Assembly: GCA_002838815.1 (NCBI GenBank)
Contig: LQGW01000053.1
Location: forward strand, 1-64,000
From: Clostridiaceae bacterium JG1575
Lineage (GTDB): Bacteria; Bacillota; Clostridia; Clostridiales; Clostridiaceae
Direction: 5' to 3'
DNA length: 64,000 nt
Below, in pieces: positions 18,901 through 24,056 of the stretch. The notes below the pieces were generated by a model. The model worked only from the letters and a program-made list of their open reading frames with translations. It ran no database searches and had not been told where the DNA came from. A program made the position numbers and the translations under genes. Each line of letters begins with the position of its first letter. Within the stretch, counting starts at the first letter, position 1.

Positions 18901-19319
18901 GAGGCGCCCGATCGCTTTGCCCGACGGTAGCTCCATCTCTTGAACGTTGGAGGACAGCTTGGAAGCGCTTCGTCCCATCGCCGGTACAAAGTTTTTTGTG
19001 CCGGCTTCTCTTTTCATTCCTCGCCCCCCTGGTCCTTGGGCGGCCCAAAAGGTGTTAATTGTATTTTTTTTTTTTTTTGAAAAAGAGTCCAGTTTTTAGA
19101 CGCTCTTTTTTTAAATTCCCTCTAATCCGACCGAGGGCTCAAGAGCCCTTGGGGCCTTGCTTTGCCCGAGCTTTTGTGGTTGGCAAAGAGCCATTTTTTT
19201 AGGCGGACCATTGGTTTTTGCTCCGCGCCTTCAGGCGAGGATTTGCCTTTTCGTCTTCCAAAAGCCGCCCCATCGGCTATAATTGAAAGTGTTATCAATC
19301 CAAACTGTGAGGTCTTATT
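18901..19319 (+). other. Intergenic region upstream of the NQR operon
   Basis: Contains a 15-T run (19064-19078), a terminator (19079-19113), and TATAAT at 19278-19283 that can be the -10 of the nqr operon, with no good -35. No trace of nqrA was found in any frame here. Confidence 0.5.
19079..19113 (+). terminator. Terminator between lemA and nqrB
   Basis: AAAAAGAG-TC pairs with GA-CGCTCTTTTT (two-base bulge) and ends in a T-run; it isolates the nqr operon from lemA. Confidence 0.65.
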
Positions 19320-20330
19320 ATGCAGCTATCGAAGGTTTTCACCAAACAGAAAATGATGCGTACGGTCTTATGGTCCATGTTGCCCATCTATTTGTTCTCC
19401 ATTTACTTGTTCGGCTGGCGGGTGCTTCTCGTGCTCCTTGCCTCCCTCATCGCCGCTTGCGTGGGTGAATGGTTGATCATGAGAATGATTCAAGGCGACA
19501 AGGCCAAGGTCTCGGAAGCCGCATTGGTGACTGCGGCGCTCTTTACGCTCACCTTGCCCCCAACCATCCCCCTCTGGATTGCCGTGGTGGGAACGCTCTT
19601 TGGGATTATCTTTGGAAAGGCCATCTTTGGCGGCTTTGCCAAAAACATCTTTAACCCCGCCTTGGTGGGGCGGGCGTTTATTTACGTGTGCTTTCCCATT
19701 CCCATGACGGTCACTTGGGCCAATCCTTTTTCGGGCGTTCCCGGAGGGTTTGCTCACTACGCACCGGGCGTTGATCTTGCGACCCGGGCTACGCCCATCA
19801 TCAATATGGAAATGAATGGCCAAGGTACCCCCTTAGCTCAAATGTTTTTAGGCAACACGGCAGGGTCTTTGGGCGAAACCTCAGGCTTGTTGATTGTTTT
19901 GGCTGCGGTTTATCTCATTTACACCAAAACAGCCTCTTGGAAGATTATGGCCTCCACCTTGGCCTCCGGCCTTTTGATGAGTTTTGTGGTCTGGCAGGCG
20001 GGCGCCGCCAAGGGAGACCCCTTCTTTGCCATTGCCTCGGGCGGCTTCCTCTTTGGGTGCGTATTCATGGCCACAGATCCCGTTTCCGCCCCCACGAAGG
20101 ATCCAGCGAAGATCCTCTACGGCGTCCTCATCGGTGCCGTGACGGTCATCATCCGAACCTTCTCGCTTTTTACGGAAGGCATGATGTTTGCCATTCTCAT
20201 CGCCAACTCCTTTGCGCCCCTCATGGACCTTAATGTGAAAAAATGGCAAGCCCGCCGCAAGGCCAAGGAGGCCAGCCCCGCGCTTCCCGCTCAAAAAGCC
20301 GCTTCGGCGGTGTCCAAGGAGGCCAAATAA
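19320..20330 (+). CDS. nqrB: NQR-type Na+-translocating NADH dehydrogenase subunit B
   Basis: Membrane subunit carrying covalent FMN in the sodium channel of Na+-NQR. 336 residues, shorter than Vibrio NqrB (about 410) mainly at the N-terminus. The stretch LTLPPTIPLWIAVVGTLFGI..GKAIFGGFAKNIFNPALVGRAF is closer to NqrB than to RnfD; RATPI holds the threonine expected to bind FMN (TRAT in place of SGAT), and FMATDPVSAPT is the late signature. The highly charged tail (about 305-336) is unusual. First gene of a tight nqrBCDEF operon that lacks nqrA. Confidence 0.88.
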   Translation: MQLSKVFTKQKMMRTVLWSMLPIYLFSIYLFGWRVLLVLLASLIAACVGEWLIMRMIQGDKAKVSEAALVTAALFTLTLPPTIPLWIAVVGTLFGIIFGKAIFGGFAKNIFNPALVGRAFIYVCFPIPMTVTWANPFSGVPGGFAHYAPGVDLATRATPIINMEMNGQGTPLAQMFLGNTAGSLGETSGLLIVLAAVYLIYTKTASWKIMASTLASGLLMSFVVWQAGAAKGDPFFAIASGGFLFGCVFMATDPVSAPTKDPAKILYGVLIGAVTVIIRTFSLFTEGMMFAILIANSFAPLMDLNVKKWQARRKAKEASPALPAQKAASAVSKEAK

Positions 20331-20927
20331 ATGAAAAAGAGTTATCAGTATACCTTGGTCTTTATGATTCTTGTGGCCAGCGTCTTCACCGCCATATTGG
20401 CGACAGCGCAGACCACCATGAAGCCCATCATTTTGGACAACCGTCTGGTGGCGGAGCAGCGGGCTATTTTAGAGGCTTTCAATCTTAAGCCGGGTTCCGA
20501 TGATGAAGTCAAAAAAGTCTTTTCCTCGAAGATCAAGCCGGATGTCCGCACGATCAAAGGACAAGAGATTAAGGGCTATCGCTGGGAAGAGGGTGGCGAG
20601 ATCAAAGGGTACGCCATCCCCTTTGCAGGCTCTGCGCTCTGGGGAACCGTGCGAGGCTATTTGGCCCTCAACCAGAACTTAGGGGAACTGCTCGGCATCA
20701 CCTTCACCGAGCAAAATGAAACCCCGGGATTGGGCGGGCGTATTGATGAGGCTCCCTACAAAGAACAGTGGCGCGGGCTTAAGATGCCCAAGGGTCCCTT
20801 AAGCTATGGCCCCATGGGCGATCAAAAAATTGATGCCATCTCCGGGGCCACCTTGACCTCGAATTCGGTCATGCGAATCCTCAATGAACTGAAAACCAAC
20901 GTACTGAGCCAGTGGGAGGTGAAATAA
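20331..20927 (+). CDS. nqrC: NQR-type Na+-translocating NADH dehydrogenase subunit C
   Basis: 198 residues: one N-terminal helix (about 7-27) then an extracytoplasmic FMN-binding domain. The flavinylation motif SGATLTS (threonine near 176) and TFTEQNETPGLGGRI are intact; ALWGTVRGYLAL is the NqrC/RnfG core. It starts immediately after the nqrB stop and its stop overlaps the nqrD start. Covalent FMN needs an ApbE flavin transferase, which is not in this window. Confidence 0.9.
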   Translation: MKKSYQYTLVFMILVASVFTAILATAQTTMKPIILDNRLVAEQRAILEAFNLKPGSDDEVKKVFSSKIKPDVRTIKGQEIKGYRWEEGGEIKGYAIPFAGSALWGTVRGYLALNQNLGELLGITFTEQNETPGLGGRIDEAPYKEQWRGLKMPKGPLSYGPMGDQKIDAISGATLTSNSVMRILNELKTNVLSQWEVK

Positions 20928-21589
20928 TGGCGACTGAAACCCCAAAACAAATTGCCATACGAAATATCTGGCTGGACAACCAAGTCCTGCGTCAAATCCT
21001 TGGCATCTGTTCGTCCCTTGCGGTGACCAACCGGATGCAAAACTCCCTCGTGATGGGTCTTGGCGTGGTGTTTACCACGGCCATCTCCTCACTCATTCTC
21101 TCTGCGCTTCGCTCCTACATCCCGCAAAGAATCCGCATGATTGTGCAGGTTTTGGTCATCTCCTTTTGCGTGATCTTGGTGAATATTTCCCTTCAGGCAT
21201 TCTTCCCCAGCGTGTCCAAACAGCTGGGTCCTTATGTCGGATTGATCATCACCAACTGCATCATCATGGGCCGCGCTGAAGCGTATGCGGCCAAAAATCC
21301 GCCCTTGGCTTCTTTGTTGGATGGCTTGTTTGCGGGCCTTGGGTACACCATTGTCCTTTTGATGATTTCCTTGATCCGTGAAGTTTTGGGCTTTGGCACC
21401 ATCTTTGGCGTGGCGCTTCCCTTCACCTTCACGACTTGGACGCTCATGGTCATGCCGCCGGCAGCTTTCTTCATCATCGGAACCTTTGTTTGGGCCGTGA
21501 ACAACTATCAGGCCCGCCGGGAAGAAAAGCAAGGCATCGTTCGTTCCGGCGATCTGACGATTCAAAAGAAAGAAGGAGGGGCTCAGTAA
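20927..21589 (+). CDS. nqrD: NQR-type Na+-translocating NADH dehydrogenase subunit D
   Basis: 220-residue integral membrane protein, six helices. LRQILGICSSLAVTNRM matches NqrD; C28 and the cysteine in ITNCIIMGRAEAYA are those that, with two in NqrE, hold the intramembrane iron site. ATG 20927 overlaps the nqrC stop (TAATG), with GGGAGG upstream. Confidence 0.92.
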   Translation: MATETPKQIAIRNIWLDNQVLRQILGICSSLAVTNRMQNSLVMGLGVVFTTAISSLILSALRSYIPQRIRMIVQVLVISFCVILVNISLQAFFPSVSKQLGPYVGLIITNCIIMGRAEAYAAKNPPLASLLDGLFAGLGYTIVLLMISLIREVLGFGTIFGVALPFTFTTWTLMVMPPAAFFIIGTFVWAVNNYQARREEKQGIVRSGDLTIQKKEGGAQ

Positions 21590-22191
21590 TGGCTCAGCAG
21601 GCACCCAACATCAGTCCCATTGTGATCTTTTTCGCCTCCATCTTCACCTCCAACATGATTTTGTCCAACTTCTTGGGCATGTGCTCCTACCTTTCGGTCT
21701 CCAGTGAATTCAAGACCGCCAATGGCCTAGGAAAAGCCGTGGTGGTGGTTTTGGTCATTACAAACACTGTGAACTGGTTTTTGAACAAATACCTGATTCA
21801 ACCGAGAAATCTTGAATTCCTTTCCTTCATCATCTACATCATGGTGATTGCCGCCATTGTTCAGATTTTGGAGATGGCGCTGGATCGATACCTGCCGGAT
21901 CTTCACGCAAAGCTTGGCATTTTCTTGCCCCTCATCACCGTGAACTGCGCCGTATTGGGCGCCACGCTCTTTCAGGACATTAGAAACTACAACCTGCCCC
22001 AGACCATTTTATTCAATCTGGGCTCCGGCCTTGGATGGTGGATGGCCATAAGCATGCTGGCGGCCATTAAGGAAAAAATAGCCAAAAACAAGATGCCCCG
22101 GGGACTTCAAGGGGTCGGCATTTCCTTTATCATTACCGGAATTATGGCCTTGGCGTTCATCGGCTTTTCCGGCATTTTCACCATTCAATAA
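21589..22191 (+). CDS. nqrE: NQR-type Na+-translocating NADH dehydrogenase subunit E
   Basis: 200-residue integral membrane protein. LGMCSYLSVS (C32) and FLPLITVNCAVLGATLF carry the two cysteines of the iron site shared with NqrD. AAIKEKIAKNKMPRGLQGVGI and the FSGI ending are NqrE rather than RnfA features. ATG 21589 overlaps the nqrD stop (TAATG). Confidence 0.93.
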   Translation: MAQQAPNISPIVIFFASIFTSNMILSNFLGMCSYLSVSSEFKTANGLGKAVVVVLVITNTVNWFLNKYLIQPRNLEFLSFIIYIMVIAAIVQILEMALDRYLPDLHAKLGIFLPLITVNCAVLGATLFQDIRNYNLPQTILFNLGSGLGWWMAISMLAAIKEKIAKNKMPRGLQGVGISFIITGIMALAFIGFSGIFTIQ

Positions 22192-22203
22192 GGAGGATCC
22201 GAC

Positions 22204-23313
22204 ATGTTAGGGGAAATCTTAAACGCGACCATCAGCATCACGCTCATCGCTGCCGTATTGGCCATCATCATTTCCATTTCTGAGCGCTACTTGAACAATT
22301 ATGGGGAATGCAAGCTCACCATCAACGATGGGGCGAAGGAAATGGTGGTGGAAGGCGGATCCAGTTTGTTAACCACCCTTGCCGGCCAAAAGCTGTTCAT
22401 CCCTTCGGCTTGTGGCGGAAAGGCGACCTGCGGTCTTTGCAAAGTCCAAGTCTTTGAAGGGGCTGGACCGATCCTGCCCACGGAGGAACCATACCTGACG
22501 GCCAAAGAGCGCGAGAATCATTATCGACTCGCCTGTCAAATCAAAGTCAAATCCAACATGCGCCTGGGTATTCCAGAGGAACTTTTCAACATCAAGGAGT
22601 TCATCACTACCGTGGAGCGCTTGGACGATCTGACTTACGACATCAAGGGCGTTCGCCTGGCCCTGCCAGAAGGAGAAACCATTTCTTTTAAAGCCGGACA
22701 ATTCATGCAGTTTTACAGCAAGCCCTACGACAAGGTCACGGAAGAAGTGTTCCGCGCCTATTCCATCTCATCGCCCCCCTCGGACAACGGGCACGTGGAA
22801 TTTTGCATCCGCCAAGTTCCAGATGGCTTATGCACCACTTGGGTTCATAAGCACCTCAAAGTTGGCGATCAAGTGCGGCTGTCGGGTCCCTACGGGGATT
22901 TCTACTATCGCGGCAACTGCGACACCATGATTATGGTGGCCGGAGGATCAGGCCTTGCACCGATGCGCTCCCTCACCTATGACAACCTCAATAAAAACGT
23001 CGACGTGAAGATGATCTTCTACTTCGGCGCTCGGACCGAGGAGGACTTATACTACATCGATGAAATGAGGGCGATTGAAAAAGAGCACGACAACTTTACC
23101 TTCATTCCCACCCTTTCGCATCCTAAAGGGGAGTGGAAGGGCCATGTGGGAAGAATCACCGACCTTTTGGAATCTGCCTTAGAAGACGGTACGGCGGGAG
23201 CCGGCAAGGAAGCGTATCTTTGCGGATCTCCGGGATTTTTGAAAGCCGTCAACGAACTGCTGAAACGAAAGGGCTTTGATAAAGAAACGCAAATCTTCTA
23301 CGACGAATTTTAG
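22204..23313 (+). CDS. nqrF: NQR-type Na+-translocating NADH dehydrogenase subunit F
   Basis: NADH-oxidising entry subunit, unique to NQR and absent from Rnf. 369 residues: N-terminal helix (about 5-25), [2Fe-2S] ferredoxin domain with CGGKATCGLC and the fourth cysteine in RLACQ, FAD domain (RAYSISSPP), and NADH domain (GGSGLAPMRSL, YLCGSPGF). It settles the operon as NQR-like. Slightly shorter than the roughly 407-residue Vibrio protein. AGGAGG precedes ATG 22204. Confidence 0.95.
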   Translation: MLGEILNATISITLIAAVLAIIISISERYLNNYGECKLTINDGAKEMVVEGGSSLLTTLAGQKLFIPSACGGKATCGLCKVQVFEGAGPILPTEEPYLTAKERENHYRLACQIKVKSNMRLGIPEELFNIKEFITTVERLDDLTYDIKGVRLALPEGETISFKAGQFMQFYSKPYDKVTEEVFRAYSISSPPSDNGHVEFCIRQVPDGLCTTWVHKHLKVGDQVRLSGPYGDFYYRGNCDTMIMVAGGSGLAPMRSLTYDNLNKNVDVKMIFYFGARTEEDLYYIDEMRAIEKEHDNFTFIPTLSHPKGEWKGHVGRITDLLESALEDGTAGAGKEAYLCGSPGFLKAVNELLKRKGFDKETQIFYDEF

Positions 23314-23325
23314 GAGGGCCAATAG

Positions 23326-23814
23326 ATGAAAGTTCGACCAGAAATGAAATCCATCGAAGAGGACATGCAGCCCGGGCGTCTGTCCCTCGAAGGCTATTTG
23401 GGAGAGGATTCCCGTTCCTTAGAGACCATCATTCGTGAAGATGAGGAAGTCTTGAAAGAGCTCGGCACCACAGCTAAGGAAATGGGCCGGGTCATGCGCC
23501 GCATCACCTTGGCGGGCATGGAGGCTGAGGGAGAGCCCATTCCTTTTGATGGATATGAAGTGGAGGTATCGGAGTATCGCGGCTGGATCGGCTGTCCCTT
23601 CAAAGACAATCGCAAGGCCGGCAAGCGCATCACCAACGTGACAAGTCTTGAGACGGGCGAGCATTTTTGCTGGACCGACATCGGCATTCATTTGGTCCGT
23701 GATCACGGTTTTTTCCAGGGGAAGGGATCGTCCTTCCGCTTGGATCCTGCTGCTTTGGCGAAGTTTTTGAGAATGAGCGAACGGACCCTTGCGCCCCTTA
23801 CGGAAGATGAATAA
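23326..23814 (+). CDS. Unknown soluble protein co-transcribed with nqrBCDEF
   Basis: 162 residues, 12 bases after nqrF with its own GGAGGGCC ribosome site, so part of the operon. No membrane segment. Features visible: an acidic helical N-terminal half, a GCPFKDN loop, and a C-terminal block with cysteine and histidines (HFCWTDIGIHLVRDHGFFQGKGSSFRLD). No family could be named. Its position where an NQR operon lacks NqrA makes it a candidate accessory or acceptor-side partner, but that is inference from position only. Confidence 0.75.
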   Translation: MKVRPEMKSIEEDMQPGRLSLEGYLGEDSRSLETIIREDEEVLKELGTTAKEMGRVMRRITLAGMEAEGEPIPFDGYEVEVSEYRGWIGCPFKDNRKAGKRITNVTSLETGEHFCWTDIGIHLVRDHGFFQGKGSSFRLDPAALAKFLRMSERTLAPLTEDE

Positions 23815-23834: not shown

Positions 23835-24056
23835 ATGGACAATAAAAACCGACCCATTCATTCCATCTTGCAGCTTTTGAAGGAGCGGTGGCTGACCGTG
23901 GTTTTACTGGTCATCCTCCTCGTCCTTTTGGTCCTGAGCCGACGCGTTCAAACCCAAGGGCCCAAGCGAGCGTTGGCGATGATTCTCCTGCTACTTCCCA
24001 TCAAGCGACGCGCTTCTTTGCAAGTGCTGCGTGGGGAGACCCCTTCATCGCTTTAA
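23835..24056 (+). CDS. Possible small single-pass membrane protein
   Basis: 73 residues: basic N-terminus, one strong helix (about 19-34, LTVVLLVILLVLLVLS), and a second moderately hydrophobic stretch. GAAGG lies close to ATG 23835, and a terminator follows. It may be the last gene of the nqr operon. Coding status is uncertain; no homologue recognised. Confidence 0.45.
   Translation: MDNKNRPIHSILQLLKERWLTVVLLVILLVLLVLSRRVQTQGPKRALAMILLLLPIKRRASLQVLRGETPSSL

Follow-up and report, generated by a model that had tools for sequence, protein, structure and literature searches.

An NQR-Type Operon without nqrA, with a Conserved Sixth Gene and Altered Quinone Contacts in NqrB

Introduction

The Na+-translocating NADH:quinone oxidoreductase (Na+-NQR) of the Vibrio cholerae type, encoded as NqrABCDEF, shares a homologous core with the Rnf complex, encoded as RnfCDGEAB. 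Related two-subunit NQR/RNF-like systems, in which an RnfD-like part is fused to a NAD domain, are described in excerpts of PMC8238504 and PMC10979944. According to excerpts of PMC4148951 and PMC5924567, NqrBCDEF without NqrA occurs in Pseudothermotoga thermarum, Pseudothermotoga lettingae and Clostridium ultunense, and its electron acceptor has already been queried; an Izimaplasma genome is also among the prior work cited (PMC6256511, seen in excerpt). Here we analyze an operon at 19320-23814 of a 64,000-nucleotide stretch of DNA from Clostridiaceae bacterium JG1575 (the window; positions 1 to 64,000 of contig LQGW01000053.1, assembly GCA_002838815.1), in which nqrB, nqrC, nqrD, nqrE and nqrF are followed by a sixth gene, X, and nqrA is absent. 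We refer to this gene content as NQR-X and to loci that carry it as X-type.

Like Na+-NQR, NQR-X has the B-C-D-E-F gene order, the NqrF input module, the NqrD/E cysteines, the flavin threonines and most of the riboflavin residues, and its B, D and E proteins fall on the NQR side of a tree that includes Rnf. Unlike Na+-NQR, it has no NqrA, no NqrB N-terminal stretch and neither Gly141 nor Phe159 of NqrB, and it has gene X in addition. Its NqrB resembles RnfD both in length and at positions 141 and 159, but NQR-X has NqrF instead of RnfB, lacks RnfC, forms a separate clade and resides in a genome that encodes a true Rnf elsewhere. With the two-subunit systems it has in common an input from NAD(P)H and a membrane part like NqrB/RnfD, whereas each of B, C, D, E and F is encoded separately in NQR-X and B is not fused to a NAD-binding domain, as the NQR/RNF-like definition (Meheust 2021) would require. 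The Pseudothermotoga and C. ultunense operons (Theth_1137-1141, Tlet_0865-0869 and CUESP_0375-0379) have five genes without nqrA, as here, and their descriptions in the excerpts, on which our comparison is based, name no sixth gene. The absence of NqrA, noted in an original prediction made from the window sequence, had thus already been published for such operons (PMC4148951 and PMC5924567, in excerpt). In the literature covered, which excluded subscription papers and most preprints, we saw neither the clade nor the lost contacts described, nor a sixth gene conserved in such operons.

Results

The operon consists of six co-directional genes:

19320..20330, + strand: nqrB, 336 aa, RnfD-length; Pfam NQR2_RnfD_RnfE
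20331..20927, + strand: nqrC; Pfam FMN_bind; SGAT motif with flavin threonine T174
20927..21589, + strand: nqrD; Pfam Rnf-Nqr; cluster cysteines C28 and C111
21589..22191, + strand: nqrE; Pfam Rnf-Nqr; cluster cysteines C32 and C120
22204..23313, + strand: nqrF; Pfam Fer2, FAD_binding_6 and NAD_binding_1
23326..23814, + strand: gene X, 162 aa, without a family; the operon's sixth gene, starting 12 bp past nqrF

The original prediction had read this interval as five genes and overlooked the sixth. Its assignment of the five as NqrB, C, D, E and F is borne out by clear Pfam domains, with mixed NCBIfam labels. NqrC, NqrE and NqrF each had their own family as top model with a score below its cut-off (97.9 versus 144, 233.4 versus 247.55, and 276.9 versus a curated cut-off of 295, respectively). 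NqrD scored highest with the NqrD model (230.9, cut-off 235) and exceeded the RsxE subfamily cut-off (188.5 versus 184), while NqrB exceeded the rnfD cut-off (241.6 versus 207.05) and fell below that of nqrB (211.7 versus 349.9). NqrF comprises an N-terminal helix, a [2Fe-2S] site (C70/C76/C79/C111), a flavin adenine dinucleotide (FAD) motif (RAYS, 184-187) and a NAD-binding domain. The iron-site cysteines of NqrD and NqrE (D28/D111 and E32/E120) and the flavin threonines of NqrB and NqrC (B158 and C174) are all present in the window proteins, as had been claimed; with the carriers from NADH to riboflavin kept, the electron route from NADH appears intact, also as claimed.

NqrA is indeed missing. 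The nqrA profile TIGR01936 had 0 matches in the window's genome, in the same-genus genome G001 (the metagenome-assembled genome (MAG) “Clostridium sp. isolate AS10tlH2TH_361”) and in the closed, one-contig genome G002, and tblastn with three NqrA/RnfC queries against the entire 97.5-kb contig of which the window is part returned nothing at E<=1. Weak matches to the profile, all below its cut-off and away from the operon, occurred in the X-type genomes G297, G455, G456, G457, G462 and G463. The window's genome is a 2.38-Mb draft in 64 contigs with 97% completeness, which could have concealed an nqrA lost through incomplete assembly or located elsewhere. This explanation is exceedingly improbable here and is refuted for the clade as a whole: G002 is a single contig, no A lies within 5.1 kb upstream of B on the Ilyobacter polytropus plasmid pILYOP01, and the three A/RnfC queries revealed no A in the 22 X-type loci with a visible upstream side, the single match upstream of an X-type B being at chance level (L040, E 0.58). 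A visible upstream side means at least 600 bases before B, a length reached in Ilyobacter and in all but four of the 26 X-type loci; in these four, B lies outside the fetched stretch (G001 and G578) or the contig ends 225 or 324 bases before B (G644 and G562, respectively).

The window's genome does hold a protein of the NqrA/RnfC type, because a complete rnfCDGEAB operon lies on a separate contig, C55. TIGR01936 missed this RnfC and was therefore rejected as proof of RnfC absence. That RnfC might serve both complexes in place of NqrA gains something from this operon and from the presence of rnfC and rnfD in four other X-type genomes (G454, G456, G461 and G464), but such sharing would couple NADH to NAD+, and the X-type operon gives no pointer to RnfC; the window NqrB is, moreover, shorter at its N-terminus than RnfD of the same genome. 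We regard the explanation as very improbable. Neither RnfB (ferredoxin input) nor RnfC (NAD output) is encoded in the NQR-X operon; both belong to the Rnf operon on C55, whose RnfE has a cysteine-rich C-terminal tail (L166:3666-4478).

We scanned named genome contigs and examined the first 15 (L037-L051) of the 50 loci listed. Twelve (L039-L050) carry B-C-D-E-F-X behind differing upstream genes, in 11 MAGs of the side that we label Clostridia-type (two labelled Christensenella) and in one member of the Victivallaceae, whose phylum we take to belong to the Planctomycetes-Verrucomicrobia-Chlamydiae (PVC) group. L037 and L038 are contigs of G001, and L051 has a distant NqrF only. The closed genome G002 and G297 have the same six genes. 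The flanking genes mostly vary from locus to locus, and therefore B, C, D, E, F and X seem to travel together as a unit. The original prediction had proposed a survey of relatives for a BCDEF-only arrangement; BCDEF without A does recur, but with X as a sixth gene rather than alone, and the locus is thus not a bare loss of nqrA.

Among the window's genome and its near relatives (58 genomes in all), a full NqrF is confined to the genus (3/3). In a sample of 398 genomes of the phylum, NqrF at E<=1e-25 was found in eight: two have the X-type operon (the window's genome and G297), four have an RnfC/NqrA-like gene before B (G096, G377, G437 and G406), and two have no nqr operon (G383 and G104). X occurs in three of the 398, namely the window's genome, G297 and G119; the last, from the same genus as G297, lacks B-F between the same neighbours, and its X is a decayed remnant. 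A PVC sample (n=194) contained 54 genomes with NqrF at E<=1e-25, which divide into 28 with canonical NqrF (E<1e-160), 12 with X and 14 with neither (of these 14, G547 alone was examined). The 12 genomes with X and the 28 with canonical NqrF do not overlap. X adjoins F in 11 of the 12, the exception being G532, where X stands by itself on a different contig of that genome. Three PVC genomes (G578, G632 and G644) have both an X-type and an A-type operon, and each operon has only one of A and X. Among 72,556 plasmid records X was found once, in B-C-D-E-F-X order on pILYOP01, where it is annotated as “hypothetical protein” (WP_013388434.1); none was found in phages.

A and X exclude one another in the operons counted. 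A is present in 0 of the 26 X-type loci, in 25 of which X is linked to nqrF, whereas the 11 other nqr loci (seven A-type loci with an RnfC-like A and four canonical ones) all have A and none has X. Three further canonical plasmid operons agree (A 3/3, X 0/3). These counts leave out a fragment with F-X only in G535 (L223), a second copy in G001 with F only (L033) and an odd cluster in G547. That cluster (L211:6535-10393) has the order nqrE-nqrF-B-C with a divergent B (29% identity) and neither A nor X in the fetched stretch.

In a tree of concatenated B, D and E proteins (42 rows), NQR-type operons split from Rnf with support of 100/100, and all 26 X-type operons group in a single clade (100/100) on the NQR side of that split; the operon belongs to the NQR and not the Rnf lineage, as had been proposed. 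The A-type operons fall into a second clade (100/99) except for one of the seven, G578, which joins the canonical operons (98/94). The tree contains one long Rnf branch and two X-type rows of odd composition. An NqrF tree built by a quick method again recovered the X-type proteins as one group, with weaker support (Shimodaira-Hasegawa-like approximate likelihood ratio 88, not starred). A mirror-tree comparison of X with B, D, E and F (r 0.79-0.85, 22 operons) had no background control and was not used as support.

The cofactor sites are retained across X-type operons. The NqrD/E cysteines and the four NqrF cysteines are present in 26/26 rows, and the flavin residue of NqrC is Thr in 24 of 25 and Ser in one. 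For NqrB, residues were counted in 25 X-type proteins (24 loci and Ilyobacter) using V. cholerae numbering. The flavin mononucleotide (FMN) residue Thr236 is kept in all 25, as are the riboflavin-site residues Asn200, Asn203 and Ala205; Asp346 is kept in 24, Gly198 in 20 and Thr162 in 15, with Ser in the other 10.

The quinone site presents a different pattern. In V. cholerae NqrB, as described in excerpts of PMC10643135, Gly141 and Phe159 contact the quinone, and substitution of Gly141 would block it; Glu157 is critical to inhibitor binding (PMC9325719, excerpt), and the N-terminal stretch is used by NqrA and by quinone-site inhibitors (excerpts of both papers). X-type NqrB proteins have Gly141 in 0/25 and Phe159 in 0/25 (position 159 is Val in 20 and Ala in five), and Gly at position 158 is replaced by Ala or Ser. 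The window NqrB has C47 and A68 at the positions of Gly141 and Phe159, with the FMN threonine T158 kept. Both contacts are present in 6/7 of the RnfC-like A-type proteins and in 6/7 of the canonical rows, where the exception at Phe159 is a very divergent Nitratireductor protein; Rnf rows have neither (0/5 each). X-type NqrB proteins also lack the N-terminal stretch and begin near the first membrane helix. At some loci the nqrB frame is open further upstream and a longer start is possible, although no similarity to the N-terminal stretch was seen there. The path to riboflavin looks kept, and the site where quinone takes the electron does not. Because these contacts are lost, a different final acceptor, as the original prediction had suggested, becomes more likely. 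Separately, the Nitratireductor plasmid pOM-1 has an annotated NqrB of 258 aa with Ile at the FMN threonine (L238:4050-4826), and its apbE is annotated as two genes.

Protein X resembles no family or fold that we could find. With Pfam, searched to E 10, the lowest E was 0.091, and with NCBIfam, searched to E 5, it was 0.011 in a single member; neither gave a family, and the best sequence match in the PDB was to a designed protein (E 0.18). The AlphaFold model is confident (predicted local distance difference test score 89.7, predicted template modelling score 0.85), and Foldseek against the PDB gave a best E of 0.11 with none at E<=0.001. VIA-align gave a best Z of 2.7 and compared mainly residues 50-139, so that X may yet have a known fold. 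Membership in a known family or fold was rejected as a candidate explanation on these comparisons. Reading of the sequence revealed no signal peptide or membrane helix, from which we infer that X is cytoplasmic. Cys90, Asp118, His122 and His127 are invariant in 15 aligned X proteins and may form a metal site. At the Pfam and NCBIfam thresholds given above, the matches of these 15 proteins did not include the model for NqrM, although an analogue of other sequence is possible.

X may be an assembly or iron-sulphur maturation factor analogous to NqrM, serving a five-subunit pump that reduces menaquinone at a changed NqrB site. The possible metal site would suit such a factor, as would the position of X, since nqrM directly follows nqrF in Klebsiella. 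This proposal also bears on the host's quinones, for which we used UbiA, the family that holds the prenyltransferases of quinone synthesis. On the Clostridia side, UbiA over cut-off was found in 4/4 A-type and 4/15 X-type genomes; across all X-type genomes a UbiA-family gene is present in 15/27, that of the window's genome being MenA-like, and none over cut-off is present in 12/27, several of which are incomplete MAGs. The Clostridia side suggested that the hosts might generally be quinone-free, a rule that we rejected on the PVC genomes (11/12 with a match). MenD over cut-off was found in 0/20 genomes, and the window's genome has no MenD match; this says little, because four A-type genomes with strong UbiA also had none over cut-off, and MenD was dropped as a quinone test. 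The original suggestion that the host may lack quinones accordingly gains no clear support either way. A menaquinone-reducing pump with X as its assembly factor would fit the hosts that have UbiA and the retention of Glu157 in most X-type NqrB; it sits poorly with the 12 genomes without UbiA over cut-off, with the loss of Gly141 and Phe159 in all 25 proteins and with the missing N-terminal stretch, and we consider it somewhat unlikely.

A further explanation is that electrons exit at the outer face, from the FMN of either NqrC or NqrB, to secreted flavinylated reductases, so that NqrA and the quinone pocket become dispensable. Extracytosolic flavin routes are surveyed in PMC8238504 (seen in excerpt). 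The window's genome encodes ApbE and lipoprotein-like proteins with FMN_bind and a fumarate-reductase-like FAD domain (L162 and L163/L164; L161 was assigned by its FMN_bind match and FAD domain), and an outward electron route is possible there. FMN_bind matches number 2-23 in sixteen X-type genomes versus 2-6 in four A-type genomes; these numbers count matches rather than proteins, and kinship confounds them. G463 and G457, with two FMN_bind matches each, weaken any general link to flavinylated reductases; G463 is without UbiA, and one of its two matches is NqrC. Moreover, an outward route would not need the riboflavin residues at the cytoplasmic end of NqrB, yet Asn200, Asn203 and Ala205 are kept throughout. 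We consider this explanation quite unlikely. No one acceptor suits all X-type genomes, and the sequences argue solely against the usual quinone site.

Several other proteins were encountered. On contigs C28 and C33 of the window's genome, a 672-aa flavin reductase (L163:484-2502 and L164:363-2381, both - strand) has the same start sequence and the same following open reading frames (ORFs), possibly an assembly duplicate. X-type MAGs with Rnf operons (L177, L178, L179 and L180) have very large FMN_bind proteins (to ~1056 aa) at the place of RnfG; multi-flavinylated RnfG in Christensenellales is mentioned in an excerpt of PMC8238504. The NQR-X neighbourhood of G002 has on its upstream side a lipoprotein-like protein that resembles cytochrome b5, together with a small membrane protein (L031:572-1378).

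The upstream boundary of the operon in the window is probably marked by one feature:

18980..19005, + strand: terminator-like hairpin, 11 pairs (6 G-C), T-rich tail; match to consensus only

The hairpin lies past the upstream gene, which is lemA-like and is separated from nqrB by a 419-bp gap. A terminator and a promoter had both been proposed before nqrB. The hairpin accords with the former, while promoter-like sites in the region are at chance level (two versus 3.6 expected), the one that precedes nqrB overlapping its start codon. Downstream, a possible 73-aa membrane ORF (23835-24056, + strand) starts 20 bases past X; no comparable ORF of >=70 aa is listed directly after X in G002.

Other NQR variants were met alongside. 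Seven NqrF-bearing operons (L105, L106, L107, L108, L214, L216 and L218) have an RnfC-like first subunit with both 4Fe-4S motifs (7/7) and without the RnfC-type GxGGxxFPxH motif (0/7 versus 5/5 in Rnf); these subunits seem intermediate between RnfC and NqrA. A NuoE-type [2Fe-2S] domain replaces the FNR/NADH part of NqrF in two A-type operons of PVC genomes (L216:5255-6742, - strand, and L218:4119-5123, + strand), and a NuoF-like gene adjoins, an arrangement that pairs an NQR core with the input module of complex I.

Discussion

Within the genomes sampled, the sequence comparisons establish the gene content of NQR-X, the mutual exclusion of A and X, the clade and the residue pattern, and by this evidence the conserved variant of NQR is real. 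Our preferred explanation, which we judge to be about as likely as not, is a third NQR type (B, C, D, E, F and X), with an output other than the usual quinone site and with X either on the NqrA side or an assembly factor, and the same likelihood holds, approximately, for a pump that would pass its electrons to a non-quinone acceptor. That X is an output-side subunit is possible but tentative, its main rival being an assembly factor.

The retained parts suggest how such a pump would work. NADH entry at NqrF and the NqrD/E [2Fe-2S] ligands are in place, as are the FMN sites in both C and B and the greater part of B's riboflavin site, and the core would move electrons from NADH across the membrane to the NqrB riboflavin, coupled to pumping. 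From there, electrons would exit to some acceptor that is not quinone at the usual site. With less confidence, we propose that X, as a soluble cytoplasmic protein, acts at the output side instead of NqrA, where it may close or stabilize the riboflavin end of NqrB or dock the acceptor. Extended to the whole clade, NQR-X could be an ion pump widespread among anaerobes of at least three phyla, for quinone-free oxidation of NADH; NqrA and the quinone contacts would have been lost together, and the soluble subunit X would couple the NqrB riboflavin to a different, perhaps cytoplasmic, acceptor; this fuller proposal is speculative and somewhat doubtful as a whole.

Several observations weigh against a non-quinone output with X in the place of NqrA. 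The PVC X-type loci were found via X itself, and the upstream side is visible in only 22 of 26 X-type loci. Because the X-type operons form one clade, the exclusion of A and X represents one evolutionary change, kept since, rather than many. Within NqrB, the inhibitor-site Glu157 is retained in 19/25 X-type proteins and the riboflavin site itself is altered at Thr162 in 10/25 and at Gly198 in 5/25, while one canonical row (G468) has Leu and one A-type row Val at position 141. No cofactor motif is present in X, and in Klebsiella it is nqrM that occupies the position after nqrF. Finally, UbiA-family matches are present in 11/12 PVC X-type genomes, and the window's genome has one MenA-like UbiA protein, below the subfamily cut-off.

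What appears to be new is the linked X, the joint loss of NqrA and of the quinone contacts, and the occurrence in Clostridia-type, PVC and Fusobacteriota genomes alike. An NQR lineage without NqrA and the quinone contacts, and with another protein, is a natural experiment on the role of NqrA and on changes of acceptor by the RNF/NQR core. The presence of NQR-X in Ilyobacter polytropus DSM 2926, a culture-collection strain, opens both questions to experiment. If the acceptor is not quinone, NQR-X would add to the ion-pumping NADH oxidases of anaerobes.

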